Assembly: GCF_013744875.1 (NCBI RefSeq)
Contig: NZ_CP059399.1
Location: forward strand, 7,688,001 to 7,752,000
Origin: Nocardia huaxiensis
GTDB taxonomy: Bacteria > Actinomycetota > Actinomycetes > Mycobacteriales > Mycobacteriaceae
Direction: 5' to 3'
DNA length: 64,000 nucleotides
Position 1 is the stretch's first letter, and every line of letters begins with the position of its first letter. Shown here one piece after another: positions 95 to 18,242 of this stretch. Below the pieces are notes generated by a model. It did not search any database. It saw only the letters and a program-made list of their open reading frames with translations, and was not told the origin of the DNA. Made by a program: the position numbers and the translations under genes.

Positions 95-1498
95 ATGACA
101 CTCATTGGTACGGACACGGCACGGTCCACCACCGGATCCAGCCGCCCGGCGGCAGGATCCCCCGCCACCCGCCGGGCGCCCACCGCGCCGGGCGCGCTCC
201 CGCTGCTGGGGCACTGGCCGCGCTTCGGCCGCCGGCCCTATCGCTTCCTGTCCACCCTGCCGGCCGTGGGTCCGGTTGTGCGCGTGCGAATTCCGGGCTA
301 CGACACCTACGTTGTCACCGACCCCGAACTGGTGCGCGAGTCGTTCGTGGCGCTCTCGGATCAGGGCATGATGATCGAACGGGCCGAGGCGCTGCTCGGC
401 GAGGGCGTGACCGTGCTGCAGGGACAGCGGCACCGGCGGGAACGCCGCATGATCGCGCCCGCCTTCGCCAAGGCCCGCATCGCCCGCTACGCCGAGGTCA
501 TGACGAGACACGGTGCGGCGCGGGCGGATTCCTGGCGCGTGGGTCAGGTGCTGGCCGTCAACGAACAGATGCACGATCTGGCGCTGCGAACTGTCGCCGG
601 GGCGCTGTTCAGCGGCGAGCTGGGCGCGGAGACCGCCGAGCACATCCATCGACTGCTGCCGCCCGTCATGACGTTGCTCTCGCGCCGGGTCACCCGTCCG
701 GCCTGGATCGACCGACTCCCGCTGCCCGGCAACCGTCGCTTCACCGCCCTGGTCGCCGAGATGAAAACGGCGACGGGCACCATTATTTCGGCCTATCGCG
801 CCGAACTGGCCGCCGACCCGGAGCTCGATCACGGCGATCTGCTCGACACGCTGCTCAAGGCCCGCGACGAATCCGGGGCCGCGCTCACCGACTCGCAGGT
901 GCACGACGAGCTGATCAACTTCCTGGTGGGCGGCACCGAGGCCATCGGCGCCACCCTCGCCTGGGTGTTCCATGAACTGGGCGCCAACCCGGCGGTGGAA
1001 GCCGCACTGCACGCCGAGGTCGACGCGGTGCTCGACGGCGGGCGCGCGGCGGAATTCGCGGATCTGGCCCGGCTGGAGGTGACCAAGCGCATCGTGCTCG
1101 AGACGCTGCGCAAGTACTCACCGTGGTTGACGGTGCGGCATGTGCCGGAGCCCTATGTGCTCGGCGGGGTCGAGATACCCGCGGGCAGCATGCTTTTCGT
1201 GTGCCCGGTCGCGGTGCACCGGGACCCGGCCGTGCACGCCGATCCGCTGCGCTTCGACCCGGATCGCTGGCTGCCCGAACGCATGGCCGACCTGTCCAAG
1301 GGGGCGCACCTGCCCTTCGGCATGGGTGCGCGGCAGTGCCCGGGCAATATCTTCGCGCTCACCGAGATCGCACTCCAGGTGGCGACCATCAGCGCTCGCT
1401 GGCGGCTGCGGCCGATTCCCGGAATCCCGGTGCGGGAGACCGTGATCGGTGCGCTCGTGCATCCGGAGCAGCTGCCCATGCAGGTGGAGGCGCGCTGA
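95..1498 (+). CDS. Cytochrome P450 monooxygenase
   Basis: Heme-thiolate monooxygenase of 467 aa. The heme-binding loop FGMGARQCPG places the axial Cys at residue 415. The K-helix ExxR is E336-T-L-R339, and the I-helix oxygen-activation segment LVGGTEAIGAT has its Thr near 281. There is no membrane anchor, so it is a soluble bacterial class P450 that needs external ferredoxin and reductase, neither of which is adjacent. An in-frame TTG lies upstream at 86, but ATG 95 has GGAG at 81-84 at good spacing. The MMPL gene begins 2 nt after its stop, so the two are surely co-transcribed. The substrate is unknown; the MMPL and BVMO neighbours suggest a lipid or polyketide-like metabolite. Confidence 0.95.
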   Translation: MTLIGTDTARSTTGSSRPAAGSPATRRAPTAPGALPLLGHWPRFGRRPYRFLSTLPAVGPVVRVRIPGYDTYVVTDPELVRESFVALSDQGMMIERAEALLGEGVTVLQGQRHRRERRMIAPAFAKARIARYAEVMTRHGAARADSWRVGQVLAVNEQMHDLALRTVAGALFSGELGAETAEHIHRLLPPVMTLLSRRVTRPAWIDRLPLPGNRRFTALVAEMKTATGTIISAYRAELAADPELDHGDLLDTLLKARDESGAALTDSQVHDELINFLVGGTEAIGATLAWVFHELGANPAVEAALHAEVDAVLDGGRAAEFADLARLEVTKRIVLETLRKYSPWLTVRHVPEPYVLGGVEIPAGSMLFVCPVAVHRDPAVHADPLRFDPDRWLPERMADLSKGAHLPFGMGARQCPGNIFALTEIALQVATISARWRLRPIPGIPVRETVIGALVHPEQLPMQVEAR

Positions 1499-1500
1499 CC

Positions 1501-3690
1501 GTGCTGGACTTCGTAATGCGCCGGCACCGGCTGGTGCTGACGATCGCCGCCGTCTTCGCCCTGCTGGCGGGGGCGGCGGGCATGACCCTGTTCGACAGGT
1601 TGCAGGGCGGTGGCTACTTCGATCCGGGCGCGGAATCCACGGCCGCGAGTGCCGCGCTGCGTGAGCATTTCGGGCAGGGCGCACCGAATCTGGTGCTGCT
1701 GGTGGACACCGGCGGATCGGTGAACGACGCCGAAACCACCCGTGCCGCAACCGCACTCGTCGATCGACTGCGCGGTGAAGCGGATGTCACGGGGGTGATG
1801 TCCTACTGGACCTCCGGTCAACTGCCCGCGCTGCGCGACAAGCAGGGCGGCAAGGGGCTCGTCGTCGCCACCATCCTCGGCGACGAAATGCACATCGACG
1901 ACCGGATCGCCGCGCTGGCACCGGAATTCGGCGGTCGCCACGACGGCCTCGACGTGCGCGTGGGCGGCTACGCCATGATGGCGCACGAGACGGTGAAACA
2001 GGGCGAGAAGGATATCGTCGCGGGTGAGGCGATCGCCTTCCCGCTCACGCTGATCGCGCTGCTGCTGGTGTTCGGCAGCGTGCTGGGTGCGGCGCTGCCG
2101 CTGCTCACCGGGACCGTCACCACCATGCTCACCATGGGTGTGCTGTGGCTGATCGCGGCGGTCACCGACCTGTCGGCCACCGCCTCGAATGTGGCCTCGC
2201 TGCTGGGGCTGGGGCTGGCCATCGACTACAGCCTGCTCATCGTCAACCGGTACCGCGAGGAGCTGTCCGGTGCGGCCGAACCGCGAGATGCCTTGCGCGC
2301 CACCATGTCCTCGGCCGGTCGGACGGTGGCGTTCTCGGCGCTCACCGTGGCGGCGGCGCTGTCGTCCATGCTGTTCTTCCCGCTGCTGGCGGTGCGGTCC
2401 ATCGGGTATGCGGGCATCGCGGTCGCGGCGACCGCCGCACTCGTGTCGCTGACCGTGCTTCCCGCCGTGCTGCTGCTCGCGGGCCCGCGCATCCGGCGGT
2501 CACGCTTCGGGCGGAAAGGGCTGTCCAGCAAGGATTCCCAGACCTTGGACGAGGGATTCTGGCATCGGCTGGCGACCATGGTGATGCGGCGGCCGGTGCC
2601 GGTCGCGACCCTCACCGTAGTGGTGCTGCTGGCGCTGGGCCTGCCGTTCCTGAAGTTCCACGCCGGATTCCCGGACTACCGCTCCATGCCGGCCGACACC
2701 TCCGCGCGGCAGGTCGCCGAAACCGTGCACGACGACTTCGACGCGGCCGAGCTCAGCGGGCTGTTCGTCGTCCTGCCGGACGGCAAGGACGGCCTCGGCG
2801 CGTATGCCGCCGCACTGTCGGCGCTCGACGGCGTGCAGCGGGTCGACACCGCCACCGGGAGTTACACCGCGGGCGCACCGGCGATTCCGGCGACGCCCGC
2901 GCACGCTCGATTCCAGAACGACACGGCCGCATACCTTTCCGTCGTGCCCGAGACCGCCGACCCAGATGCGGTCGGTGCGGTCGTCCGCGAGATCCGCGAC
3001 ACCGCGGCCCCCTCGCGCGCACTGGTGGGCGGTGTGGACGCGGCGAACCTGGACGCCATCGACGCGCTGACCGGCCGCGCCCCGATCGCGCTCGGCTATG
3101 TGCTGATCCTCATGGCCGTGCTGCTGTTCCTGCTGACCGGAAGCCTTTTCGTGCCGGTGCTGGCGCTGGTGCTGAGCGCCTTGAGCCTGACGGCCACCTT
3201 CGGTGCGCTGGTGTGGATCTTCCAGCAGGGGCATCTGTCCGGGCTGCTGGGCTTCACCGTCACCGGCGACATCTCGGCGGTCGTGCCGGTCATGTTGTTC
3301 GCCGTGGCCTTCGGGCTGGCCATGGACTACCAGGTGTTCCTGCTGGCCCGCATCCGCGAGGAGTACGAGCTGTCCGGTGACCCGGTGGGCTCGGTCGCCA
3401 TCGGACTGGAACGCATCGGCCGGATCGTCACCGCGGCCGCCATCCTCATTTCCATTGTGTTCCTGGGATTCCTGGCCTCCGACATCACCTTCATGAAGGC
3501 GTTCGGTATCGGGCTGCCGCTGGCGGTGCTCGCCGACGCCACCCTGATCCGCGGCTTCCTGCTGCCCGCCGCCCTGCGTCTCGGCGGCCGCTGGACCTGG
3601 TGTGCGCCCGCGCCGCTGCGCCGCCTGCACGACCGCATCGGGATTCGCGAAAGCGCCGCGCCGCCGGTGACGGCCGCCGTCGGCGCATGA
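1501..3690 (+). CDS. MMPL family transporter
   Basis: RND-superfamily transporter of the MMPL (mycobacterial membrane protein large) type, 729 aa. This is the short class, close to the YdfJ-like proteins. It shows the expected two-fold repeat: one N-terminal membrane helix, a periplasmic domain, then five helices (about residues 175-335), repeated after residue 360. Hydrophobic runs such as LLGLGLAIDYSLLIVNRYREE and VAFGLAMDYQVFLLARIREE carry the conserved GLxxDYxxFLLxRxREE signature in both halves. The start is GTG 1501, 2 nt after the P450 stop. MMPLs use proton-motive force to export lipids and siderophores, so here it probably exports the product of the flanking oxygenases. Confidence 0.92.
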   Translation: MLDFVMRRHRLVLTIAAVFALLAGAAGMTLFDRLQGGGYFDPGAESTAASAALREHFGQGAPNLVLLVDTGGSVNDAETTRAATALVDRLRGEADVTGVMSYWTSGQLPALRDKQGGKGLVVATILGDEMHIDDRIAALAPEFGGRHDGLDVRVGGYAMMAHETVKQGEKDIVAGEAIAFPLTLIALLLVFGSVLGAALPLLTGTVTTMLTMGVLWLIAAVTDLSATASNVASLLGLGLAIDYSLLIVNRYREELSGAAEPRDALRATMSSAGRTVAFSALTVAAALSSMLFFPLLAVRSIGYAGIAVAATAALVSLTVLPAVLLLAGPRIRRSRFGRKGLSSKDSQTLDEGFWHRLATMVMRRPVPVATLTVVVLLALGLPFLKFHAGFPDYRSMPADTSARQVAETVHDDFDAAELSGLFVVLPDGKDGLGAYAAALSALDGVQRVDTATGSYTAGAPAIPATPAHARFQNDTAAYLSVVPETADPDAVGAVVREIRDTAAPSRALVGGVDAANLDAIDALTGRAPIALGYVLILMAVLLFLLTGSLFVPVLALVLSALSLTATFGALVWIFQQGHLSGLLGFTVTGDISAVVPVMLFAVAFGLAMDYQVFLLARIREEYELSGDPVGSVAIGLERIGRIVTAAAILISIVFLGFLASDITFMKAFGIGLPLAVLADATLIRGFLLPAALRLGGRWTWCAPAPLRRLHDRIGIRESAAPPVTAAVGA

Positions 3691-3724: not shown

Positions 3725-5191
3725 ATGACCACCGCTTCCGACCATTACGACGTCGCCATCATCGGCTCCGGCTTCAGCGGACTCGGTGTTGCGATCAACC
3801 TGCGCCGGTTGGGGATCGACAACTTCGTCATCCTGGAGCGGGCGGACACGGTCGGCGGCACCTGGCGCGACAATGTGTATCCCGGTTGTGCGGTGGACGT
3901 TCCGTCGGTCCTGTACTCCTACTCGTTCGCGCCGAACCCGGACTGGACGCGGCTCTACGCCACCCAGCCCGAGTTGCGCGAGTACACCGAGAACGTGGTC
4001 GACAGTTTCGATCTGCGCCGCCACGTGCGATTGCGCAGCGAGGTCGGCTCGGCCGATTTCGACGAGTCCGCCAAGCTGTGGACGATCCAGCTCACCGATG
4101 GCCGCGAGATTCGCGCCCGCGCCGCCGTGATGGGGTACTTCTCGCTGCACGAGGCCACCGTCCCGGATATCCCCGGCCGCATGGAATTCACCGGCCCGCA
4201 GATGCATTCGAGCCGGTGGGATCCGGCCTTCGAGCCGGAGGGCAAGCGCATCGCCGTGATCGGCTCCGGCGCGAGCGCGGTCCAGATCGTCCCGGCGCTG
4301 GCCCGCACCTCGGCCCGCGTCCTGTCCTTCCAGCGCACCGCCGCCTGGGTGCTCCCCCGCGGTGACCGCCCCATCCCGCCCGCCGTGCGCACCGTGCTCC
4401 GCCGTATCCCACCGCTGCGACTGGCCGCGCGCGCCTTCGTCTTCACCTTCCTGGAGGCGCTGCACTTCGCCGAATTCCACCCGCGCCTGGTCTCGCTCTA
4501 CGCGCGGGTCTGCCTGGCGGCCCTGAAACGCCAGGTGCCCGACCCGGAAACGCGCCGCAAGCTCACCCCCGACTACAGCTTCGGCTGCAAACGGCCCATG
4601 GTCTCCGACGAGTACTACGCCGCATTCGCCCGGCCCACAGTGGATCTCGTCACGGAGAAGATCATCGAGATCACGCCGACCGGCCTGCGCACCGCCGACG
4701 GCGCCCACCACGAAGTGGACGCCATCGTCTGGGCCACCGGCTTCCACGTCCAGGACTCCATCGCCCGCTTCCCCGACTTCCGGACCCCCACCACATCGAC
4801 CCGCCGCAAGTTCGCCGAAGACGGCTTCACGGCCTACCGCGGCATAGCCTTCGCCGGCCTCCCCAACCTGTTCGCTGTGACGGGCCCCAATACGGCCCTC
4901 CCCCACACCTCGCAGTTCCTCGCCATCGAGCCCACCGCCCGGCTGATCGCCCGCACCATCGCCCACATGCGCGCCCACCACATCCCCCGCTACACACCGA
5001 GTGCGGGTGCCGAGCGTGAATGGGTGACGCGCGCACGGGATCTGCTGAGTTCGCGGGTCTGGTCGACCGGTGGCTGCACCAACTACTTCACCACCGCTGA
5101 CGGCACCAACACCCTCACCTACCCCGGAGGTACCTGGACGCTGCGGCGGGATCGCCGTCAGCTGCGGCTCGAAGACTGGCAGCTGGGGTAG
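3725..5191 (+). CDS. Flavin-containing (Baeyer-Villiger-type) monooxygenase
   Basis: FAD/NADPH-dependent monooxygenase, 488 aa. The N-terminal FAD Rossmann motif is GSGFSG at residues 14-19. The BVMO fingerprint FxGxxxHxxxW is seen as F155-T-G157...H161...W165. The second, NADPH-binding Rossmann motif is IAVIGSGASAVQIVP near 176-190, and the family's WATGF is present near 338. A strong GAGGAG at 3715-3720 precedes ATG 3725. It lies 34 nt after the MMPL stop on the same strand, so it probably forms the third gene of that unit. The chemistry (ketone to ester insertion, or N/S-oxygenation) cannot be settled from sequence. It converges on the GntP gene with 3 nt between the stops. Confidence 0.93.
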   Translation: MTTASDHYDVAIIGSGFSGLGVAINLRRLGIDNFVILERADTVGGTWRDNVYPGCAVDVPSVLYSYSFAPNPDWTRLYATQPELREYTENVVDSFDLRRHVRLRSEVGSADFDESAKLWTIQLTDGREIRARAAVMGYFSLHEATVPDIPGRMEFTGPQMHSSRWDPAFEPEGKRIAVIGSGASAVQIVPALARTSARVLSFQRTAAWVLPRGDRPIPPAVRTVLRRIPPLRLAARAFVFTFLEALHFAEFHPRLVSLYARVCLAALKRQVPDPETRRKLTPDYSFGCKRPMVSDEYYAAFARPTVDLVTEKIIEITPTGLRTADGAHHEVDAIVWATGFHVQDSIARFPDFRTPTTSTRRKFAEDGFTAYRGIAFAGLPNLFAVTGPNTALPHTSQFLAIEPTARLIARTIAHMRAHHIPRYTPSAGAEREWVTRARDLLSSRVWSTGGCTNYFTTADGTNTLTYPGGTWTLRRDRRQLRLEDWQLG

Positions 5192-5194
5192 TGC

Positions 5195-6712
5195 TCAGGC
5201 CAGGAGGGCGAACAGGAGGGCGGCTACCGCGAAACTGACCACGGAGAGCACTGTTTCGAGGACCGTCCAGGTTTGCAGGGTTTGCTTCACCGTGAGGTTG
5301 AAGTACTTGGCGATGATCCAGAATCCGCCGTCGTTGACGTGGCTGAGGATGATGGAGCCGGCGGCGATGGCCATGGCGATGAGGGCGAGAGCCAGTTGGG
5401 AGTAGCCCTTGTCGGCGATCAGGGGGGCCACGATGCCGCCGGTGGTGACGATGGCGACGGTGGCGGAACCCTGGGCGATGCGCAGGCCGCAGCTGATGAT
5501 GTAGGCGAGGACTATGACGGGGAGGCCGGCGGCGGACATGGTTTCGGCCAGGGCCGCGCCGATTCCGGTGGCGGAGATGACCTTTCCGAAGAAGGCGCCT
5601 GCGCCGACGACCAGGAGCAGCATGCCGACGGGGCGCAGGGATTCGGCGGTGAGGGTGCTGAGTTCCTGGACCGAGGAGCCGCGGCGAACGCCGAGCACGT
5701 AGAAGGCGATCAGGACCGCGATGAGCAGCGCCACCGCCGGGGTGCCCAGGAAGGTCAGCACCTGGAGCGGTTTCGAGTTCGCCTCCAGCAGCTGGCTGCC
5801 GAAGGTGGCGCCGAGGATGAGAACCAGCGGGATCGCGATGATGCCGCCGATCAGGCCCACCGACGGGGGACGGCGGACGAGCGTGGCAGCGGTGCTGGAC
5901 ACGTCGGTCGCCACTCCAGCTCCGGAAGGCTGGGCCGAGACCCCGCCACCGGGCTGTGCGGCCGAATCGCTCGGGGAGCCGGTATCGGTGATGCCGTTCG
6001 CGCCATTGTCCTTGCGGACCAGGAACTCGTCGGGCACCTCGACGTACACCCGCTTGCCGATCCAGCCGCCCCACACGATGCCCGCCGCGACGAATCCCGG
6101 TAGGCCGCAGACGAATCCCATGAGGATGAGCCAGCCCAGGCTGACGCCGAGCAGGCCGCCCAGCGACACCGGGCCCGGGTGCGGCGGGAGGAAGGCGTGC
6201 GTCATGGACAGGCCCGCGAGCATGGGCATGGCGTACAGGACCAGCGAGCGGCCACCGCGTTTCGCGGCCACGTACACCAGCGGCGCGAGCACGAAGATGC
6301 CGATGTCGAAGAAGACCGGGATGCCGAAGATCAGGCCGAGCAGACCCATGGCGAGGGGTGCGCCCTTCTCGCCGAAGATGCTCAGCAGTTTCTCGGTGAG
6401 GATGTCCGCGCCGCCCGAGCGTTCCAGGATGGCGCCGAGCACCGTGCCCAGGCCGATGATGACGGCGATGTGGCCGAGGATGCCGCCGAAGCCGGTTTCC
6501 AGCAGGGATTCACCGGCTTTCAGCGGGGTGCCGACGATCTTCGACACCGGCAGCCCCGCCGCCAGCGCCAGCCCGAGGCCGGTGAGCAGCAGGGCGATGA
6601 ACGGTTCCAGTTTGAACCGGATGATCGCTACCAGCAGCACGGCGATGGCGAGACCGCAGAGCAGCAGCAGTCCTGGCGTGGTGGTGCGCAGCCAGTCGAC
6701 GGTGGCGCTCAT
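5195..6712 (-). CDS. GntP family gluconate/sugar-acid permease
   Basis: Proton symporter of the GntP family, 505 aa, with about 12-14 hydrophobic segments and one hydrophilic, Gly/Ser/Ala-rich central loop (roughly residues 215-280) that is longer than in typical GntP proteins. GntP members import gluconate, other aldonic acids and hydroxy acids. GAGAGG lies just upstream of ATG 6712. It is the last gene of the - operon (deaminase, deacylase, aldolase, permease), starting 2 nt after the aldolase stop. That position makes it the likely importer of the acid the other enzymes degrade. Confidence 0.9.
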   Translation of the reverse strand: MSATVDWLRTTTPGLLLLCGLAIAVLLVAIIRFKLEPFIALLLTGLGLALAAGLPVSKIVGTPLKAGESLLETGFGGILGHIAVIIGLGTVLGAILERSGGADILTEKLLSIFGEKGAPLAMGLLGLIFGIPVFFDIGIFVLAPLVYVAAKRGGRSLVLYAMPMLAGLSMTHAFLPPHPGPVSLGGLLGVSLGWLILMGFVCGLPGFVAAGIVWGGWIGKRVYVEVPDEFLVRKDNGANGITDTGSPSDSAAQPGGGVSAQPSGAGVATDVSSTAATLVRRPPSVGLIGGIIAIPLVLILGATFGSQLLEANSKPLQVLTFLGTPAVALLIAVLIAFYVLGVRRGSSVQELSTLTAESLRPVGMLLLVVGAGAFFGKVISATGIGAALAETMSAAGLPVIVLAYIISCGLRIAQGSATVAIVTTGGIVAPLIADKGYSQLALALIAMAIAAGSIILSHVNDGGFWIIAKYFNLTVKQTLQTWTVLETVLSVVSFAVAALLFALLA

Positions 6713-6714
6713 GT

Positions 6715-7344
6715 TTACCTCTCAGAATTCAGCGATCGAACGAAAGCCGCCGCGCGAGCGGCGATTTCCGACCAGTTCCCGGCCGCGACCGCGGCGGGCG
6801 GGACGACATCGGTTCCGGCGGTGACCGCCACCGCGCCGTGCGCGAGGAAGTCGGCGGCATTGCCCGCATTGACCCCGCCGGAGGGGATCAGTCGAGCGTC
6901 GGGGAAGGGGCCGCGCAGGTCCTTCAGATAGCCGGGGCCGAGAGCGCGGGCGGGGAAGATCTTGACCGCAGCCGCGCCGAGCGTCGTGGCCCGCATCACC
7001 TCACTGGGCGTGAAAGCGCCCATGACAACCGGAATTTCATGGCGAGCGGCCACCTCGGCGACCGGCTCGGTCACACCGGGGGTCACCAGGAATTGCGCGC
7101 CCGCGTCGATGGCCGCCACAGCCTGGTCCGCGGTCAGCACGGTGCCCGCACCGATCACAGCCCGGTCGGCGCCGGACGCCTTGCGCAGACAGTCCAGTAC
7201 GCCCGGCGTGGTGAAAGTCAGTTCCACAGCGCGGATTCCGGCGCCGGCCAGCGCCTCGGCCAGCGCCGCCGGATCCGGAATCTCCGGTGCGCGAACAACA
7301 GTCAGCGCACGGTCGGCCAGCACGGCCGCCATGGCGGTGGTCAT
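6715..7344 (-). CDS. eda: KDPG / KHG-type aldolase
   Basis: Class I aldolase, 209 aa, the usual family size. It cleaves 2-keto-3-deoxy-6-phosphogluconate to pyruvate and glyceraldehyde 3-phosphate. The motifs are VELTFTTP with the catalytic Glu, IGAGTVLT, QFLVTPG, and VKIFPA with the Schiff-base Lys, followed by the phosphate-binding IPSGGV. ATG 7344 overlaps the end of the deacylase gene by 4 nt and has AGGAGA upstream, so translation is coupled. With the PfkB-type kinase encoded divergently, it completes the lower half of a KDG to KDPG to central metabolism route. A related keto-acid substrate (for example 2-keto-3-deoxy-6-phosphogalactonate) is possible. Confidence 0.9.
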   Translation of the reverse strand: MTTAMAAVLADRALTVVRAPEIPDPAALAEALAGAGIRAVELTFTTPGVLDCLRKASGADRAVIGAGTVLTADQAVAAIDAGAQFLVTPGVTEPVAEVAARHEIPVVMGAFTPSEVMRATTLGAAAVKIFPARALGPGYLKDLRGPFPDARLIPSGGVNAGNAADFLAHGAVAVTAGTDVVPPAAVAAGNWSEIAARAAAFVRSLNSER

Positions 7345-8957
7345 CGAGTCTCCTGACGGTCGGAATCCATGCGGAGGGTGCGGCCGGCGCGAATGCCGGT
7401 GGGTTTGCCTGCGTCCAGGGCGAATTCGCCGTTGACGAGCACATACGGGATGCCGTGGGCCTGCTGCTTCGGTTGTTCGAAGGTGGCGGTGTCGCGCACG
7501 GTGGCCGGATCGAAGAGGACCAGGTCTGCGGCGTGGCCGGGCCGGATCAGGCCGCGGTCGCGGAGGCGCAGGCGTTCGGCGGGGCGGCCGGTCAGGTGGT
7601 GGACGCAGTCTTCCAGGTCGAGGACGCCGAGGTCACGGGTGTAATGGCCCAGGTAGCGGGGGAAGGTGCCCCAGGCTCGGGGGTGCGGGCGGTCGCCGAC
7701 GAGGAGGGCGTCGCTGCCGCCCATATGGCGGTGGTGGCGCATGATGGCGCGGACGTTCTCCTCATGGCCCACGTGTTGCAGGATGGTGGTGGCCAGCTGA
7801 TCTCGGGTCAGCAGGTCGAAGAAGACCTCCACCGGGGGCAGGTCACGGTCGACGGCAAGCTGGGCGATGGTGCGGCCGACGTGCGGGGTGAGGTCGGGGT
7901 TGGCTACGCCGCTGATCTGAATGGTCTCCCAGTCGACGGTGACGCCGTGGCAGCCGTCGGAGCCGTGCACATTCACATCGAGGGCGATGGCGAGGCGGGT
8001 GTCCAGGTCGGCGATGCGGGTCAGGGCCGCGTCGGGGCCGCCGGACATGGCCCAGCTGGGCAGCAGCGCCGACAGGGTGGTGGAGCCGGGAAGATAGGGG
8101 TAGGTGTCGAGGGTGATGTCGCACCCCTCGGCCAGGGCGGCGTCGATCATGGCCAGGAATTCCGGTGCGCGGCCGCGGTTCTCGCCGAAATTCATGGTGG
8201 CGTGGGTGAGGTGCAGGGCGCAGCCGGTGCGGCGGGAGAGGTCGATCATCTCGGCGTAGGCGTCGAGCGCGCCCTTGCCGTAGGAGCGGGTGTGCGGGGC
8301 GTAGAAGCCACCGAACCGGGCCACCACCTCGCACAGGGACGCCAGTTCGCCGGTGTCGGCGTACATTCCGGGGGTGTAGGTGAGGCCGCTGGACATGCCG
8401 ACCGCGCCCTCGGTGAGGGCCTGAGCCAGGAGCTCACGCATGCGGTCGATCTCCGACGGTGTGGCCGAACGCTTTTCGGTGCCGACCACCATCAGGCGCA
8501 GGGTGCCCTGCGGGACCAGGTAGGCGGCGTTCGGGGTGATACCGGCGGTGTCCAGGCGGTCCAGGTATTCGGCGACGGTGCGCCAGGAGAAGTCGAGGTC
8601 GGCGGGATTGCCGTTCCAGCCCGCGATCTGGCGGCGCACGAGGTCGAGTGCCGTGTCGTCGATGGGCGCGTAGGACAGGCCGTCCTGGCCGATCACCTCG
8701 GTGGTGATGCCCTGGCTCAGTTTCGGGAAGTGCCCGGGTTCGGTGAGCAGGTGCAGGTCGGAGTGGGCGTGCATATCGATGAAACCGGGTGCGAGGACGA
8801 GGTTTTCGCCCTCGTCCAGGATGCGGCCGGCGGTCGCCACCGTTCCGGGGGCGGCTATCTCGGTGATGCGGCCGTCATCCACCACCACGTCCGCGCGATA
8901 CCGCTGCGCGCCGGTGCCGTCGATGACGTCGATGTCACGAATGAGCAAGTCGGGCAT
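7341..8957 (-). CDS. N-acyl-D-amino-acid deacylase family amidohydrolase
   Basis: Metal-dependent amidohydrolase of the D-aminoacylase family, 538 aa. GFIDMHAHSDLHL near residues 57-69 carries the HxH metal ligands. GMSSGLTYTPG, the APHTR segment and HLTHATMNFG match further metal and substrate regions of the family. Known members remove N-acyl groups from D-amino acids. A family member acting on N-acetyl-D-glucosaminate, which has a D-configured alpha-amino acid end, would fit this operon. It starts 19 nt after the PLP deaminase and overlaps the aldolase by 4 nt. The family call is firm; the substrate is inferred only from the neighbours. Confidence 0.9.
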   Translation of the reverse strand: MPDLLIRDIDVIDGTGAQRYRADVVVDDGRITEIAAPGTVATAGRILDEGENLVLAPGFIDMHAHSDLHLLTEPGHFPKLSQGITTEVIGQDGLSYAPIDDTALDLVRRQIAGWNGNPADLDFSWRTVAEYLDRLDTAGITPNAAYLVPQGTLRLMVVGTEKRSATPSEIDRMRELLAQALTEGAVGMSSGLTYTPGMYADTGELASLCEVVARFGGFYAPHTRSYGKGALDAYAEMIDLSRRTGCALHLTHATMNFGENRGRAPEFLAMIDAALAEGCDITLDTYPYLPGSTTLSALLPSWAMSGGPDAALTRIADLDTRLAIALDVNVHGSDGCHGVTVDWETIQISGVANPDLTPHVGRTIAQLAVDRDLPPVEVFFDLLTRDQLATTILQHVGHEENVRAIMRHHRHMGGSDALLVGDRPHPRAWGTFPRYLGHYTRDLGVLDLEDCVHHLTGRPAERLRLRDRGLIRPGHAADLVLFDPATVRDTATFEQPKQQAHGIPYVLVNGEFALDAGKPTGIRAGRTLRMDSDRQETR

Positions 8958-8976
8958 GATGTTCCGCTCAGATGGA

Positions 8977-10365
8977 TCAGAAGAAGGTGTGCAGGAAATC
9001 GACGACGCGGGGCCGCGCGGCCGCGGCGTCGTCGAGCACCGGGATCAAGCGCCACTTGTCGAAAGCGGTGCAGGGGTGCGAGAGACCCAGGCGCACAGTG
9101 CTTCCCACCTGGACATCCGCCGCTGACGCACCGGGCAGGCGCAGGAAGGCGTGCTGGTCGTTGAGCGCCGAGACGTGCGCACCCTCGGGCAGAGGTTGCG
9201 CCGCCGGTCCCGAAACCTGTTGCGGGACCGGCAGCCCCTCATCGAACGGGAGATCGCGCTTGCCCGCATCGAGCAGGGCGAGCTCCCCCTCCGGGCGCGA
9301 CACGCATCGCGCCCAGCCGTGCATGGCCGAACGCAGGGGGCGTTCGGCACGCCCCTGCGCCAGCGGGGAGATGCTGGAGTAGAAGCCGTCGTCGTGGATC
9401 AGGTAGGCGCCGGAGCGCAGCACGACCGTGGTCGGAACGCCCTGTGCGCCGGCCTCATCCGCGAGTGGGGCCAGATGTTCCACCACGAGTTCGGGGTATG
9501 CGCTGCCACCGGCGGTGATGAGCGCGCCGCGCGTGGGACCGGACCGGGCCGAACCGGGCTCGGCCGTGGCCGATTCGGCACCGGTCGACGCGACGGCGGA
9601 AGGGGCCGCAGCGTCCTCGTACCAGTCCGCCGCGGCGAGTTGCCGGTGCAGTGCGGCGATTTCGTCGAGGTAGTGCCGGACCGCCGCCAGGCTCTCCGGG
9701 GTGCGGTCGTGGGCCAGCGCGCCCTCGTAACCGCCGATTCCGGCGAGACGCAGTCGCGGCGACTTGTGCACGGCCTCGGCGACTCCGAGCGCGGCGGTCC
9801 GGTCGCGGGCACCCGTGCGGCCGTGCGGCCCACCGAGTTCCACGAGCACCGACAGGCGCACGGCCTCCGGGGCGGCTTCGAGGTGGCGTTCCATCTCGCG
9901 CACCGAGTCGACCCCGTCGACCCAGCTGAAGAGTTCGAAGCCGGGGTCGCGGGCGATTTCGGCTGCGGCCCAGCGCAATCCGACCGGATCCAGCAGCGCG
10001 TTGGCGAGCATGATGCGGTTCAGGCCGAAGGAGCGGCCCACCTGCGCCTGCCAGCCTGTGGCCAGGGTGATGCCCCAGGATCCGGCGGCCAGCTGTTCGG
10101 CCCACAGCTGGGGTGACATGGAGGTCTTGCCGTGCGGAGCCAGGCGTACGCCGGCCGCGGCGGCCCAGTCCGCCATGACGGCGCGATTGTGATCCAGGGC
10201 GGCTCGGTCCATGGTCAGCACCGGGGTTTGCAGGTCGTCCAGACGCGGTGCGGTGGCCAGGTATTCGCGCACGGTCAGGCCCCAGGCCGCGGGCGGGAGC
10301 GATTTGTGCTCCGGTCCGAGGATCCGATCGTGCAGGGCCGCGATGAGCGCGTTGTCGATGGCCAC
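8977..10365 (-). CDS. PLP-dependent D-amino acid deaminase (DSD/D-threonine aldolase fold)
   Basis: Fold-type III PLP enzyme, 462 aa, with an alanine racemase N-terminal barrel and a D-serine dehydratase-like C-terminal domain. The PLP lysine lies in RLAPHGKT (about residue 75). The C-terminal metal pair His/Cys sits in LSHPCTAFDKW. Relatives are D-threonine aldolase, D-serine dehydratase and D-glucosaminate dehydratase. An open frame extends upstream to 10593, but GTG 10365 is chosen because GGAAGGA precedes it at proper spacing and similarity to the family begins there. An Ala/Ser/Gly-rich insert of about 28 residues interrupts the mid region (around 9528-9613). First gene of the - operon, divergent from the sugar kinase. 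Confidence 0.87.
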   Translation of the reverse strand: MAIDNALIAALHDRILGPEHKSLPPAAWGLTVREYLATAPRLDDLQTPVLTMDRAALDHNRAVMADWAAAAGVRLAPHGKTSMSPQLWAEQLAAGSWGITLATGWQAQVGRSFGLNRIMLANALLDPVGLRWAAAEIARDPGFELFSWVDGVDSVREMERHLEAAPEAVRLSVLVELGGPHGRTGARDRTAALGVAEAVHKSPRLRLAGIGGYEGALAHDRTPESLAAVRHYLDEIAALHRQLAAADWYEDAAAPSAVASTGAESATAEPGSARSGPTRGALITAGGSAYPELVVEHLAPLADEAGAQGVPTTVVLRSGAYLIHDDGFYSSISPLAQGRAERPLRSAMHGWARCVSRPEGELALLDAGKRDLPFDEGLPVPQQVSGPAAQPLPEGAHVSALNDQHAFLRLPGASAADVQVGSTVRLGLSHPCTAFDKWRLIPVLDDAAAARPRVVDFLHTFF

Positions 10366-10442
10366 GACGCTCCTTCCGAAATCGATTGAGCCGCGGTCGT
10401 ACCGGCTCGATTGCCAACCAGCTGTGTTCAATAGCATGTCTG

Positions 10443-10475
10443 CATTGCATAATTTGCAACGCTTGTTGCGCAATG
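10443..10475. promoter_or_regulatory. Nested palindromes in the divergent promoter region
   Basis: In the 172-bp gap between the deaminase (-) and kinase (+) genes there are two palindromes side by side. One is TTGCA-TAATT-TGCAA (10445-10459). The other is TTGCGCAA (10466-10473). Both are enclosed by an outer pair CATTGC (10443-10448) and GCAATG (10470-10475). The area is unusually AT-rich for this genome. It is the natural operator for the IclR protein encoded two genes away, controlling both arms at once. That assignment is inferred. Confidence 0.6.
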
Positions 10476-10537
10476 TGTTTCTGCTGGTTATTCTGCACAC
10501 GTTGTCCGAAAGCCGCAAGCATTCGAAGGAGATTGGT

Positions 10538-11569
10538 GTGATCCAGCCGATCCGGCGGGCGGTGACCGTCGGGGAAGGACTCGCGGTCCTCATCGCACGG
10601 CCCGGCCCGCTCGAGGACTCACCCGTCTTCGAACGCGGAGCGGCGGGGGCGGAAGCGAATGTGGCGGGCGTGCTGAGTCAACTCGGGGTGCCCACCGCGT
10701 GGCTGTCGCGGGTGGGAGACGACGGGTTCGGGCGGTATCTGGTACGGGAACTGAGTGCGCGCGGCGTGGACACCTCCGCGGTGAGCGTCGATTCGCTGCG
10801 GCCGACCGGGGTGTACGTGAAGGAACGCGGGAGCGGCTCCGGGCGGTCCGGTGATCTCGCGGCGGGCACGAGCCGAATGCTGTACTACCGCACCGGATCC
10901 GCGGCCAGCGCGCTGTCACCGGCCGATCTCGCGGAGGCGAGCGGGCTGCTCGACGCGGCGGGATTGATCCACTGCACCGGCATCACCACCGCGCTCTCGC
11001 CGTCGGCCACCGACCTGACCGAGGCGCTGCTGACGCTGCGCAGGCCCGGGCGATTGATCAGCTTCGATCTCAATTACCGTGCCGCACTGTGGAATCGGCC
11101 CGCCGATACCGTGGCCGATACCCTGGCGCGGCATATTCGGGGCAGCGATATCGCGTTCCTGGGGGCCGATGAGGCCGACGCGGTGTTCGGGACCTCCGAG
11201 CCGGACGCGCTGCGGGCCCTGTTCCCGCAACCCCGGCATCTGGTGGTCAAGAACGACAAGCATTCGGTCACCGGGTTTCTCGGAGCCGAACGGGTCGAGG
11301 TGCCCGCATTGAGCCTGGAGGTCACCGAAAGCATCGGAGCCGGAGATGCTTTCGCGGGCGGCTATCTGGCCGCACTGCTCCAGGGGCGTCCGCATGAGCA
11401 GCTGCTGCGCTTCGGGCACCTGTGCGCGGCCGCCGCGCTCACCGGCGCCGGCGATGTGGCCGAGCTGCCGCCGGTGCGCACCCTCGAAAACCTTGCCGCC
11501 GTCGCGGCTTCCGAATGGGCGGGTATGCGCTATCGCCCGGCCGCCGTCCCCGAGAATGTGAGCTCATGA
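10538..11569 (+). CDS. kdgK: PfkB family kinase, probable 2-keto-3-deoxygluconate kinase
   Basis: Ribokinase/PfkB fold sugar kinase, 343 aa. The C-terminal signature ESIGAGDAFAGGYLAALL holds the catalytic Asp and anion hole. An N-terminal Gly-rich segment (GAAGAEANVAGVLSQLG) contacts the sugar, and HLVVKNDKHSVTGF is the ATP-side region. Such kinases phosphorylate KDG at O6 to give KDPG, the substrate of the aldolase encoded on the other arm. GTG 10538 is chosen because GAAGGA is 7 nt upstream; the open frame runs further upstream without coding character. Its stop overlaps the IclR start (ATGA). The exact keto-deoxy sugar acid is not provable from sequence. Confidence 0.88.
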   Translation: MIQPIRRAVTVGEGLAVLIARPGPLEDSPVFERGAAGAEANVAGVLSQLGVPTAWLSRVGDDGFGRYLVRELSARGVDTSAVSVDSLRPTGVYVKERGSGSGRSGDLAAGTSRMLYYRTGSAASALSPADLAEASGLLDAAGLIHCTGITTALSPSATDLTEALLTLRRPGRLISFDLNYRAALWNRPADTVADTLARHIRGSDIAFLGADEADAVFGTSEPDALRALFPQPRHLVVKNDKHSVTGFLGAERVEVPALSLEVTESIGAGDAFAGGYLAALLQGRPHEQLLRFGHLCAAAALTGAGDVAELPPVRTLENLAAVAASEWAGMRYRPAAVPENVSS

Positions 11570-12321
11570 GCCAGAGCCTGCAGCGCGCCCTCACCCTGCT
11601 CGTCGAACTCGGCGAGGAGCCGAAATCCCTGGACCAGCTGGCCACCGGGCTGGGCGTGCACAAGTCGACGGTGCTGCGGCTGTTGCAGACCATGGAGGGC
11701 GAACGGTTCGTCACCCATGACAGTGAGCATCGGTATCGGCTCGGGACCCGGCTGTTCGAGCTGGCCAACCGGTCACTCGAGGGACGGGATCTGCGGACCG
11801 TGGCGCGGCCGCACCTGAGCGCGCTCAATGCCGCCACCGGGCAGACCGTGCACCTGGCCACCTACGAATCCGGCGAAGCCGTGTACATCGACAAGCTCGA
11901 TGCCACCCACAGCGTGCGCATGTACTCGCGCATCGGGCGGCCGGCGGCGCTGCACTGCACGGCGGTCGGCAAGGTGCTGGTGGCCGCGCTGCCCCGCGAA
12001 CAGTGGGCGGCCATCGCGGAACGGCTGGACTACCGCAAGTTCACCGAACGCACCATCCAGAGCCCCGAGCAATATCTCGCGGAGTTGGAACTCGTTGCGG
12101 CCCAAGGGTTCGCCGAGGATCACGAGGAACACGAGAGCTTCATCAACTGCGTCGCCGTCCCGATTCGCAATGGCACCGGCGCGGTCGTCGCCGCACTGTC
12201 GGTGTCGGTGCCGGACATGCTGCTCGATCACGACCAGGTGCTCGGCCTGCTGCCGCGGGCACGCGCGACGGCCGACGCCGTATCCACCGAGCTCGGCTGG
12301 AGCCCGAGCCCCGACAAGTGA
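11566..12321 (+). CDS. IclR family transcriptional regulator
   Basis: Regulator of 251 aa. The winged HTH lies in the first 60 residues (SLDQLATGLGVHKSTVLRLLQ is the recognition part), followed by the IclR effector domain (GRPAALHCTAVGKVLVAALP and the later INCVAVPIRN segment). IclR proteins bind small organic acids and usually repress the adjacent catabolic genes. It overlaps the kinase gene by 4 nt, is followed 11 nt later by ridA, and faces the palindromes at 10443-10475 through the kinase promoter. A keto-acid intermediate of the pathway is the likely inducer (inference). Confidence 0.93.
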   Translation: MSQSLQRALTLLVELGEEPKSLDQLATGLGVHKSTVLRLLQTMEGERFVTHDSEHRYRLGTRLFELANRSLEGRDLRTVARPHLSALNAATGQTVHLATYESGEAVYIDKLDATHSVRMYSRIGRPAALHCTAVGKVLVAALPREQWAAIAERLDYRKFTERTIQSPEQYLAELELVAAQGFAEDHEEHESFINCVAVPIRNGTGAVVAALSVSVPDMLLDHDQVLGLLPRARATADAVSTELGWSPSPDK

Positions 12322-12332
12322 AAGGCCCGTCC

Positions 12333-12740
12333 ATGAGTGAGAAGATCGCCGTCCGCACCGAGCTGGCGCCCGCACCCGCGCACACGTTTTCGCAAGGGGT
12401 GCGCAAGGGGCCGTTCGTGCAGGTGTCCGGACAGGGGCCGGTCGACCCGGTGACCAACGAGTACCTGTACCCGGGCGATGTCGCGGCGCAGACCATTCGG
12501 ACGCTGGAGAATGTGAAGGCGATCGTCGAGGCGTCGGGGGCGAGCTTCGACGATGTGGTGATGCTGCGGGTGTATCTGACCAAGCGGGAGGACTTCCCGA
12601 TCATGAACGAGGCGTACGGGAAGTTCGTCGAGCAACACACGAACGGTGGGGTACTGCCCAGCCGCACAACGGTTTTCACCGGTCTGCCACGGGAAGAGAT
12701 GCTGGTCGAAATCGACGGCATCGCCATCGTCGAAAACTGA
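12333..12740 (+). CDS. RidA/YjgF family enamine-imine deaminase
   Basis: Small Rid protein of 135 aa with the family's core GVRKGPFVQVSGQGPVDP, the Arg of PSRTTVFTGLP that binds the carboxylate, and the terminal VEIDGIAIV. Rid proteins hydrolyse 2-enamine/2-imine intermediates released by PLP dehydratases. Placed in one unit with a PLP deaminase, it fits well as the factor that turns the deaminase's imine product into the keto acid. ATG 12333 follows the IclR stop by 11 nt. A longer in-frame reading from 12003 is only the IclR gene in another frame. Confidence 0.92.
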   Translation: MSEKIAVRTELAPAPAHTFSQGVRKGPFVQVSGQGPVDPVTNEYLYPGDVAAQTIRTLENVKAIVEASGASFDDVVMLRVYLTKREDFPIMNEAYGKFVEQHTNGGVLPSRTTVFTGLPREEMLVEIDGIAIVEN

Positions 12741-17328: not shown

Positions 17329-17363
17329 CGGACACGTTGTCACGGTGGGAGGGAGCCCGCGGA

Positions 17364-18242
17364 ATGGGCAGGTTCATCAAGAGTTTCGGCTGGGACGTGT
17401 CCGCGCCACTGGGCCCGGAATCGCTGACCTGGAAGCACTTCGGCGATATCCGCTCCATGTTGATCCTGGGCCGCGCCGGGACGCTGCAGAATATGCACCC
17501 GGTTCTGGACAAAGCGCTGCAGGAGCATTCGAACTTCTTCAGCGATCCAATGGACCGGTTCGATCGCTCCATCAAGCCGATTCACGCCATGATCTATCAA
17601 CCGCGCGCGGGCGAGAACGCCGCCACCGTGCGGGATTTCCACAAACCGATCAAGGGCGTGGACGAGCAGGGCGAGCGGTATCACGCGCTGGATCCGGACG
17701 TGTTCTGGTGGACGCACGTCACCTTCTACGAGTCCATCATCGCCACCCAGGAGTTCTTCGGGACACCGCTCAGCGAGGACGAGAAGCGGCAGCTGATCGC
17801 GGAGGGGCTGACGTGGTGGCGGCTCTACGGGATGAGCGAGCAGCCCGCGTTCGGGGATTACGAGAGCTACCAACAGTATTGGCGGCACATGTTCCAGGAG
17901 GTACTGGGCAGCAATCGCACCACCGACTTCGCGGCGGCCATCCACCGGGCGAAAGTGCCCGCACCGCCGGGGATTCCGGAGCCGGTGTGGCGGCTGGCGC
18001 GGTTTCCGGTGATGAGTATCGGGGTGTGGATCTCGAACGCCACCATGCCCGCCGAGGCGCGGGAAATACTGGGCTGGAAGTGGACTCGCGCGGATCGAGC
18101 CGCGTTCGGGGTATTCCGGCGGGTGGTGCGGTTGACGTGGGAGATCGCGCCGAGGCGGCTGCGCTACATCCCTGATTCGTGGGCGGGCATGCGGCGCTAC
18201 GACGAAGATCCTGCGGCCTACGCGGAGAGCGCCGCGGGCTGA
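17364..18242 (+). CDS. DUF2236 (MpaB/Lcp-type) oxygenase family protein
   Basis: Protein of 292 aa of the DUF2236 family, which includes the fungal MpaB and bacterial latex-clearing (Lcp) b-type heme oxygenases. Family segments seen are the N-terminal MLILGRAGTLQNMHPVLDKAL, EHSNFFSDPMDRFDRS, the RDFHKPIKG ... YHALDPDVFWWTHVT block with a conserved His, and the later LTWWRLYGMSE. ATG 17364 has GGGAGGGA at 17347-17354. An in-frame TTG at 17337 is an alternative if the transcript starts there. No partner reductase is adjacent. The substrate is unknown; a second family member lies about 3 kb away (21164-22441). Confidence 0.85.
   Translation: MGRFIKSFGWDVSAPLGPESLTWKHFGDIRSMLILGRAGTLQNMHPVLDKALQEHSNFFSDPMDRFDRSIKPIHAMIYQPRAGENAATVRDFHKPIKGVDEQGERYHALDPDVFWWTHVTFYESIIATQEFFGTPLSEDEKRQLIAEGLTWWRLYGMSEQPAFGDYESYQQYWRHMFQEVLGSNRTTDFAAAIHRAKVPAPPGIPEPVWRLARFPVMSIGVWISNATMPAEAREILGWKWTRADRAAFGVFRRVVRLTWEIAPRRLRYIPDSWAGMRRYDEDPAAYAESAAG

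Follow-up and report, generated by a model that had tools for sequence, protein, structure and literature searches.

Which compound is consumed by the seven genes at positions 5195..12740 of a 64,000-nucleotide stretch of Nocardia huaxiensis DNA, hereafter the window? As read from the DNA and from Pfam matches, the genes are intact and form two divergent operons, in which a deaminase (dea), a deacylase (dac), an aldolase (eda) and a permease (gntP) are encoded on the minus strand, and a sugar kinase (kdgK), a regulator (iclR) and a Rid-family protein (ridA) on the plus strand. The seven genes likely serve, under IclR control, the breakdown of N-acetyl-D-glucosaminate (GlcNAc1A), the terminal sugar of chitin after oxidation at C1. 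The initial annotation had grouped seven genes of these families around one promoter region, all of which were recovered with Pfam support, and had proposed that they act on an acylated 2-amino sugar acid, probably GlcNAc1A, which is converted via glucosaminate to 2-keto-3-deoxygluconate (KDG) and its 6-phosphate (KDPG). That proposal is supported by a pathway known from Pseudoalteromonas prydzensis, and by the recurrence of the operator of the locus, in relatives, at genes for a GH20 hexosaminidase with an ATP-binding cassette (ABC) importer and for a lactonase.

The family assignments of all seven proteins are firm, that of the kinase at the superfamily level only. On the minus strand gntP (5195..6712) encodes a GntP-family permease of 505 residues (PF02447 GntP_permease, 5.8e-118; TIGR00791, 364 bits against a cut-off of 292.75), eda (6715..7344) an aldolase of 209 residues of the KDPG/2-keto-4-hydroxyglutarate (KHG) type (PF01081, 3.7e-47; TIGR01182, 182 bits against a cut-off of 156), dac (7341..8957) a D-aminoacylase-family deacylase of 538 residues (PF07969 Amidohydro_3, 1e-35) and dea (8977..10365) a pyridoxal phosphate (PLP)-type protein of 462 residues from the D-serine dehydratase family (PF14031 D-ser_dehydrat, 3.4e-19). 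The plus strand carries kdgK (10538..11569; PfkB-family sugar kinase, 343 residues; PF00294, 3.7e-42), iclR (11566..12321; IclR-family regulator, 251 residues; PF01614 IclR_C, 1.9e-47, and PF09339 HTH_IclR) and ridA (12333..12740; Rid-family protein, 135 residues; PF01042 Ribonuc_L-PSP, 1.6e-28). The starts of four genes were refined from the DNA, to GTG at 10365 for dea and at 10538 for kdgK, and to ATG at 11566 for iclR and at 12333 for ridA. The eda start lies inside the dac stop (7344/7341), and the iclR start overlaps the kdgK stop. The best NCBIfam model of IclR is KdgR, at 190.8 bits and under its cut-off of 275; that of the kinase is a bifunctional kinase of KDG and 2-keto-3-deoxygalactonate (KDGal), at 168.5 of 400 bits and thus far under the cut-off.

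In the pathway that we propose, GntP would import free GlcNAc1A, from which the deacylase would strip acetate to leave D-glucosaminate. This β-hydroxy D-amino acid would then lose its C3 hydroxyl and its amino group through the PLP deaminase to give KDG and ammonia, while RidA would clear the imine/enamine arising at the deaminase step. The PfkB kinase would convert KDG to KDPG, which the aldolase would split into pyruvate and glyceraldehyde 3-phosphate. The steps proposed in the initial annotation, which likened them to an oxidative chitin pathway of marine bacteria, match the route shown experimentally in P. prydzensis, where OngB deacetylates, OngC yields KDG and ammonia, and KdgK phosphorylates, and where the RidA-family protein OngD is essential for growth on GlcNAc1A and is given no assigned role (PMC9537276).

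To what extent do these genes travel together? A genome scan with the deacylase alignment returned at least 590 confirmed relatives, of which the best 80 loci were kept, with dac present by construction. A simple gene caller skipped or mis-stranded some genes (for example the GH20 gene of L052); the genes were therefore counted by tblastn with the window proteins and a few homologues. The deaminase was present in 80/80 loci, iclR in 77, ridA in 76, kdgK in 70, gntP in 62 and eda in 56. The full seven-gene set occurs in 41 of the 80 loci, with identical orientation in all 41, which bears out the conservation among actinomycetes that had been suggested as a check. Several of the remaining 39 loci end at contig ends, and elsewhere kdgK, eda or gntP is absent or too diverged for tblastn. 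Genera represented include Nocardia, Rhodococcus, Arthrobacter, Kribbella, Kitasatospora, Streptomyces, Amycolatopsis, Lentzea, Saccharopolyspora and Nocardioides, among others, and an annotated Tsukamurella record has the same layout at 40-63% identity. The permease gene was found in no Kitasatospora locus and was missing from most of those in Kribbella; after eda, Kribbella antiqua encodes a solute-binding protein in place of GntP, and further on an ABC ATPase. With the rough gene caller, no extra gene family appeared in more than 13 of 85 loci. The constant core is the deacylase with the deaminase, KDG handling is a regular companion, and the grouping of the genes exceeds chance.

A second line of evidence comes from the divergent gap between kdgK and dea (10366-10537), which holds a palindrome-rich predicted IclR site, GCGCAACAAGCGTTGCAAATTATGCAATG, at 10443..10471 on the minus strand. 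This site scores 48 bits in a position-weight scan and is the sole match of at least 12 bits in the 64 kb. Of the 81 divergent regions searched, those of the window and of the 80 loci, one (L087) comes from unrelated Azospirillum DNA. Matches to 16 or more of 24 seed bases were obtained in 79 of the 81, against at most 15 in the same regions shuffled once. The consensus from the best 80 regions is gcGCAACnagCGTTGCAaAaTAtGCAAcg. The exact pattern GCAAYNNNNRTTGCRNNNNNYGCAAY is present in 76/80 loci and, at the level of whole genomes, in 48 of the 49 with the cluster, in none of which the reversed pattern occurs. A palindromic operator that adjoins the regulator gene and also precedes target operons is, by position, what is expected of an IclR regulon, and we propose that IclR binds the GCAAY-N4-RTTGC-N7-GCAAY site between the two operons. 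Overlapping operator-like sites of 23-24 bits (L072:3588-3626) also lie close to where a gene begins that groups with the GntR/FCD regulator of the Amycolatopsis locus L061, the latter regulator being followed by a PALP-type PLP enzyme.

Where else does the operator occur? The 49 cluster genomes contain seven pattern sites outside the starting loci. Two, in N. transvalensis (L092) and N. panacis (L094), are upstream of an operon for a solute-binding lipoprotein, a permease (one confirmed by Pfam, with space for a second) and a GH20 hexosaminidase; four adjoin a PF10282 lactonase gene (L093, L096, L097 and L098); and one belongs to a second complete cluster, in Mycobacterium aquaticum (L095). 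Two genome families were then scanned for the pattern, that of N. inohanensis (G001), in which 54 of 251 genomes have it and two have the reversed pattern, and that of Amycolatopsis pittospori (G034), in which it occurs in 120 of 200. Twenty of 32 two-site genomes were examined, comprising 19 of 31 from the Amycolatopsis family plus G200, some of them close kin; G211, with two overlapping sites, was left out. All 20 have one site at the cluster (in G411, at dea), and the second site is at a lactonase gene in 18, at a solute-binding protein...GH20 operon in one (G347) and at a split-off dac in one (G411). In the 18 genomes the site is 106-233 nt from the aligned lactonase start. As the 20 genomes together have no more than 24 PF10282 places below E 1e-70, chance does not explain this adjacency, even with some genomes being closely related. 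The 22 lactonases encoded next to an outlying site (the 18 and the four mentioned above) all have an RRxF stretch near the start, which we take to be a twin-arginine-like export signal, and no obvious N-terminal signal peptide was seen by eye in the GH20 proteins of N. transvalensis and of L061. GH20 genes also occur in the cluster stretch of nine of the 80 loci (five Amycolatopsis, one Saccharopolyspora and three Arthrobacter), and not in the window locus. In Amycolatopsis and Saccharopolyspora the lactonase, importer and GH20 genes directly adjoin the cluster, the three Arthrobacter loci having GH20 in another arrangement, and in L079 a second operator is immediately upstream of the importer. 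By position, the same operator thus appears to cover the lactonase and the importer/GH20 genes in relatives, which suggests that the substrate belongs to the N-acetylhexosamine aldonic acids. In these better-equipped relatives the operator would control an exported lactonase that opens the oxidised end where it is present as a 1,5-lactone, together with an ABC importer that would take in chitobionate-type oligomers, from which an intracellular GH20 would cut off GlcNAc. GlcNAc1A occurs both as the 1,5-lactone and as the open acid (PMC12017989), and a lactonase therefore has a place in its use.

It could be argued that the prominence of the lactonase, the commonest second target, and the gluconate transport by E. 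coli GntP point instead to a broader lactone/aldonate regulon, in which the GH20 link is incidental and the compound consumed is an aldonate without an acyl group, or the lactone of one. The deaminase, however, accompanies the deacylase in every one of the 80 loci and would be useless for a plain aldonate, and the operator precedes GH20 with a solute-binding protein and permease in two Nocardia and in G347; we regard this explanation as highly improbable. Another view, raised in the initial annotation, is that the locus serves the catabolism of ordinary N-acyl-D-amino acids, such as N-acetyl-D-serine or N-acetyl-D-threonine, beside an unrelated KDG branch. Indeed the deacylase and the deaminase come from D-amino-acid families, threonine at position 293 of the deacylase is the residue type of D-aminoacylases, some loci have dea and dac but lack kdgK and eda, and OngC itself also takes D-serine and D-threonine (PMC9537276). 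Against this, iclR and dea flank kdgK, the eda and dac genes overlap, and the seven genes stand together in just over half of the loci; moreover, the shared operator is found at GH20/sugar ABC transporter and lactonase genes that are unsuited to N-acyl-serine or N-acyl-threonine. This alternative is now distinctly unlikely.

If GlcNAc1A is the substrate, the cluster might be expected in genomes that oxidise chitin, with lytic polysaccharide monooxygenases (LPMOs). LPMO_10 was surveyed in the genomes of 50 of the 80 loci, which are the 49 cluster genomes, and GH20 in 25 of those 49. LPMO_10 was found in 26 of the 49, with strong matches in most Kribbella, Kitasatospora, Streptomyces, Amycolatopsis and kin; a strong match was missing in K. 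antiqua, A. pithecellobii and Pseudonocardia xinjiangensis, and, among nine Nocardia, five had weaker matches only (57-84 bits) and four had none. In the Amycolatopsis family, 40 genomes without a site and 40 with one, taken in listing order, were compared for LPMO_10 at E 1e-15, which was present in 37/40 one-site versus 15/40 no-site genomes. The difference persisted within genome-size bins (5/6 versus 5/24, and 27/29 versus 10/16), with Fisher p values of 2.9e-7 overall and 0.009 and 0.017 in the bins, which ignore kinship and are too optimistic. All 20 two-site genomes contain LPMO_10, with a best E of 2.2e-20 or lower.

The deaminase and RidA were compared with proteins of a Klebsiella plasmid (L003), which carries an ong-type cluster consisting of deaminase, deacylase, RidA, SSS symporter, galacto-type kinase and aldolase, and MurR/RpiR regulator. 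The best PDB match of the window deaminase, 3gwq ('D-serine deaminase', 1.6e-61), is also that of the Klebsiella OngC-like protein. The two proteins share 31% identity, and SHPCxxFDKW is kept in five aligned rows; the window protein differs in a longer N-terminus and an inserted stretch. At the family level, dea is thus an OngC-type fold-III PLP deaminase. Neither the RidA of the cluster nor the OngD-like protein of Klebsiella (L003:10442-10834) has an arginine at the presumed place of R105 of archetypal RidA, and both could be members of a Rid subgroup that plays a different role. The lysine in the KIFPA stretch of the window aldolase, presumably the Schiff-base residue, is kept in four aligned cluster homologues and in the Klebsiella aldolase.

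Would the same plan serve another acylated amino-aldonic acid, either the C4 epimer N-acetyl-D-galactosaminate, via KDGal and its 6-phosphate (KDPGal), or a non-acetyl N-acyl compound? Three points are consistent with the epimer: the best model of the kinase is the bifunctional one, GH20 enzymes act on both GlcNAc and GalNAc, and the Klebsiella cluster is annotated with a kinase and an aldolase of the galacto type. The aldolase of the window, however, passes the KDPG-type eda model and reaches only 105.9 of 207 bits, well under the cut-off, on the galacto model. Chitin LPMOs, moreover, are the source known for acids of this kind, and LPMO_10 tracks the operator in one family. We consequently infer GlcNAc1A over its epimer, the latter and the non-acetyl compounds being together an unlikely choice.

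It should be emphasized that several results weigh against GlcNAc1A catabolism. Of the 80 loci, 10 gave no kdgK (some Saccharopolyspora, Actinomadura and others) and 24 no eda (loci of Pseudonocardiaceae and Streptomyces), partly through contig ends. Twenty further pattern sites of the N. inohanensis family, drawn from 56 and mostly chosen as unlike the consensus, were at the cluster in seven cases and at nothing recognised in 13, and the bare pattern therefore has a background in that family. Genomes within a family, in addition, are not independent. LPMO_10 is absent from 23 of the 49 cluster genomes, among them every Arthrobacter-type (11) and Rhodococcus-type (three) genome, and GH20 from 10 of 25; N. 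inohanensis, among the nearest relatives of the window, has neither. Three LPMO query sequences, other types not being tried, gave no match in the 67 stretches around operator sites or in the 80 loci. The counts rule out LPMO_10 as an obligate partner of the cluster, and the lack of matches to those three queries speaks against an LPMO as an operator target. The co-occurrence with chitin oxidases that had been anticipated is seen in the Amycolatopsis family and is partial across the cluster genomes as a whole. Scavenging is suggested for the lineages that lack LPMO_10. There are probably two types, degraders fully equipped with lactonase and importer, and scavengers that import the free acid via GntP, the window Nocardia perhaps being one of the latter.

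The remaining contrary points concern the deacylase, whose PDB relatives are 9g5m, the D-aminoacylases AfDam (1m7j) and BbDam (3gip), and P. prydzensis OngB (PpOngB, 9kb1). It is, after rounding, 100% identical to a protein assigned to Nocardia huaxiensis. Its residues were mapped onto PpOngB with the chain numbering checked. PpOngB His68, His70, Tyr194, His222, His252, Tyr285, Ser291, Asp368, Leu370 and Arg379 are kept, as H63, H65, Y194, H222, H252, Y286, S292, D416, L418 and R427, respectively. Cys97, Leu116, Lys254, Glu226, Ser290 and Ser292 are replaced by D92, Q110, T254, Y226, G291 and T293, so that the carboxylate-binding Lys254 of OngB is absent, and Ala193 and Ala256 by T193 and N256; around PpOngB Gln298 the alignment is without confidence. 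The Cys/His/His metal site of D-aminoacylases (subtype V) is altered in that D92 stands for the cysteine, with the HxH, both His ligands and D416 kept. In PpOngB the S292T change left 1.3% of kcat/Km (PMC12017989), and a pocket bearing T293 must therefore work differently. T193, Y226, N256 and T293 are identical in 10/10 aligned cluster homologues, and T254 in 9/10. The T193 and N256 positions are occupied by Phe and Met in AfDam, and by Ile with Ala/Cys in relatives from Haloprofundus and Rhodovastum that lie outside such clusters and that have the same Asp as D92, yet keep Glu226 and Lys254. These clade-specific residues argue that the cluster clade has a pocket of its own. AfDam, of the same family, resembles the window protein in having Thr and Gly at OngB positions 292 and 290, and differs from it at T193 and N256. 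The tree places the 11 cluster deacylases in a clade of their own (99/99); the two OngB proteins belong to a separate one (100/100), shared with AfDam and with sequences from Burkholderia and Thalassospira. Residues and tree together rule out the window deacylase as an OngB orthologue; if it is active on GlcNAc1A, the cluster enzyme would have arrived there separately. The window protein also has about 50 more residues than PpOngB in an insertion region, where the stretch at 332-351, GSDGCHGV...W.TI.I.GV, is highly conserved in the cluster clade (Cys to Ala in L061) and possibly provides a substrate lid or metal ligands. The deacylase of the Klebsiella plasmid, for its part, shows no visible mismatch over 479 residues to 9g5m, deposited only as 'Amidohydrolase family protein'.

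Some neighbouring and related loci deserve mention. Plasmid-borne deacylase relatives from Haloprofundus, Thalassospira, Azospirillum, Rhodovastum, Burkholderia and Croceicoccus were set aside, as they have different gene contexts within the stretches shown. The Azospirillum stretch (L087), with a D-aminoacylase, RidA, an alanine-racemase-like protein and a peptide-type ABC transporter, resembles an ordinary N-acyl-D-amino-acid locus and is a useful contrast. M. aquaticum has, besides its full cluster with operator (L095), a second locus (L025) in which only a deaminase and a deacylase, with a distant IclR, were found; a change of substrate is possible. An MpaB/Lcp-type oxygenase domain protein is encoded at 17337-18242 of the window, and a protein that by eye resembles it at the start is encoded beside the L095 cluster. 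The genes flanking the window locus, for an MMPL-family transporter (1123-3690) and a flavin monooxygenase like flavin-containing monooxygenases (3725-5191), have no evident tie to it.

Currently, actinobacteria are recognised as soil chitin degraders (PMC6097792) and Streptomyces coelicolor is known to encode chitin-type LPMOs (PMC10067821). A search of the open-access literature, with subscription papers outside its scope, found no route of GlcNAc1A catabolism in these bacteria. In the ong paper the complete pathway is placed in Gammaproteobacteria and one Achromobacter, by a survey that demanded at least four co-occurring genes with more than 30% identity to those of Pseudoalteromonas, and neither Nocardia, Arthrobacter and Streptomyces nor the words 'lactone' and 'lactonase' appear (PMC9537276); a Nocardia-type version would hardly pass that survey. 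The GlcNAc1A diet, earlier described in gammaproteobacteria, thus so far appears new in its actinobacterial variant. We lean, with moderate confidence, towards the view that actinobacteria have a separately assembled regulon for oxidative chitin use, in which a D-aminoacylase clade other than OngB serves as GlcNAc1A deacetylase and one IclR operator links this enzyme to an exported chitobionolactone lactonase and to a chitobionate ABC importer with an intracellular GH20, and of which only the scavenging half persists in lineages that have no chitin LPMOs themselves. The regulon offers a testable route for oxidised chitin ends in actinobacteria, proposes a job for the exported lactonase and supplies an operator usable for a GlcNAc1A biosensor; if the proposal is true, two D-aminoacylase lineages have converged on one sugar acid.

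How closely, then, does the window locus follow the known system? The ong cluster of P. prydzensis ACAM 620 comprises OngB, OngC, OngD, KdgK, OngIT, OngA and OngR (PMC9537276). The marine case transfers only in part: the enzyme types are the same, whereas the deacylase lies outside the OngB clade and nearly half of the cluster genomes are without LPMO_10. Both clusters have a D-aminoacylase-like deacetylase, a fold-III PLP deaminase, RidA and a KDG kinase, with the same order of reactions by family, the last two being regular in the actinobacterial loci; ong systems further include a KDPG aldolase in some members and a GH20 for the oxidised dimer. The SSS transporter, the MurR/RpiR regulator and the Cys97/Ser292 deacetylase of ong are absent from the window locus. 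In contrast with the SSS symporter of the ong cluster, the window locus has GntP, replaced or joined in relatives by an ABC importer, and in place of MurR/RpiR it has IclR; the window-type regulon, finally, includes a lactonase and draws its deacylase from another clade than OngB.

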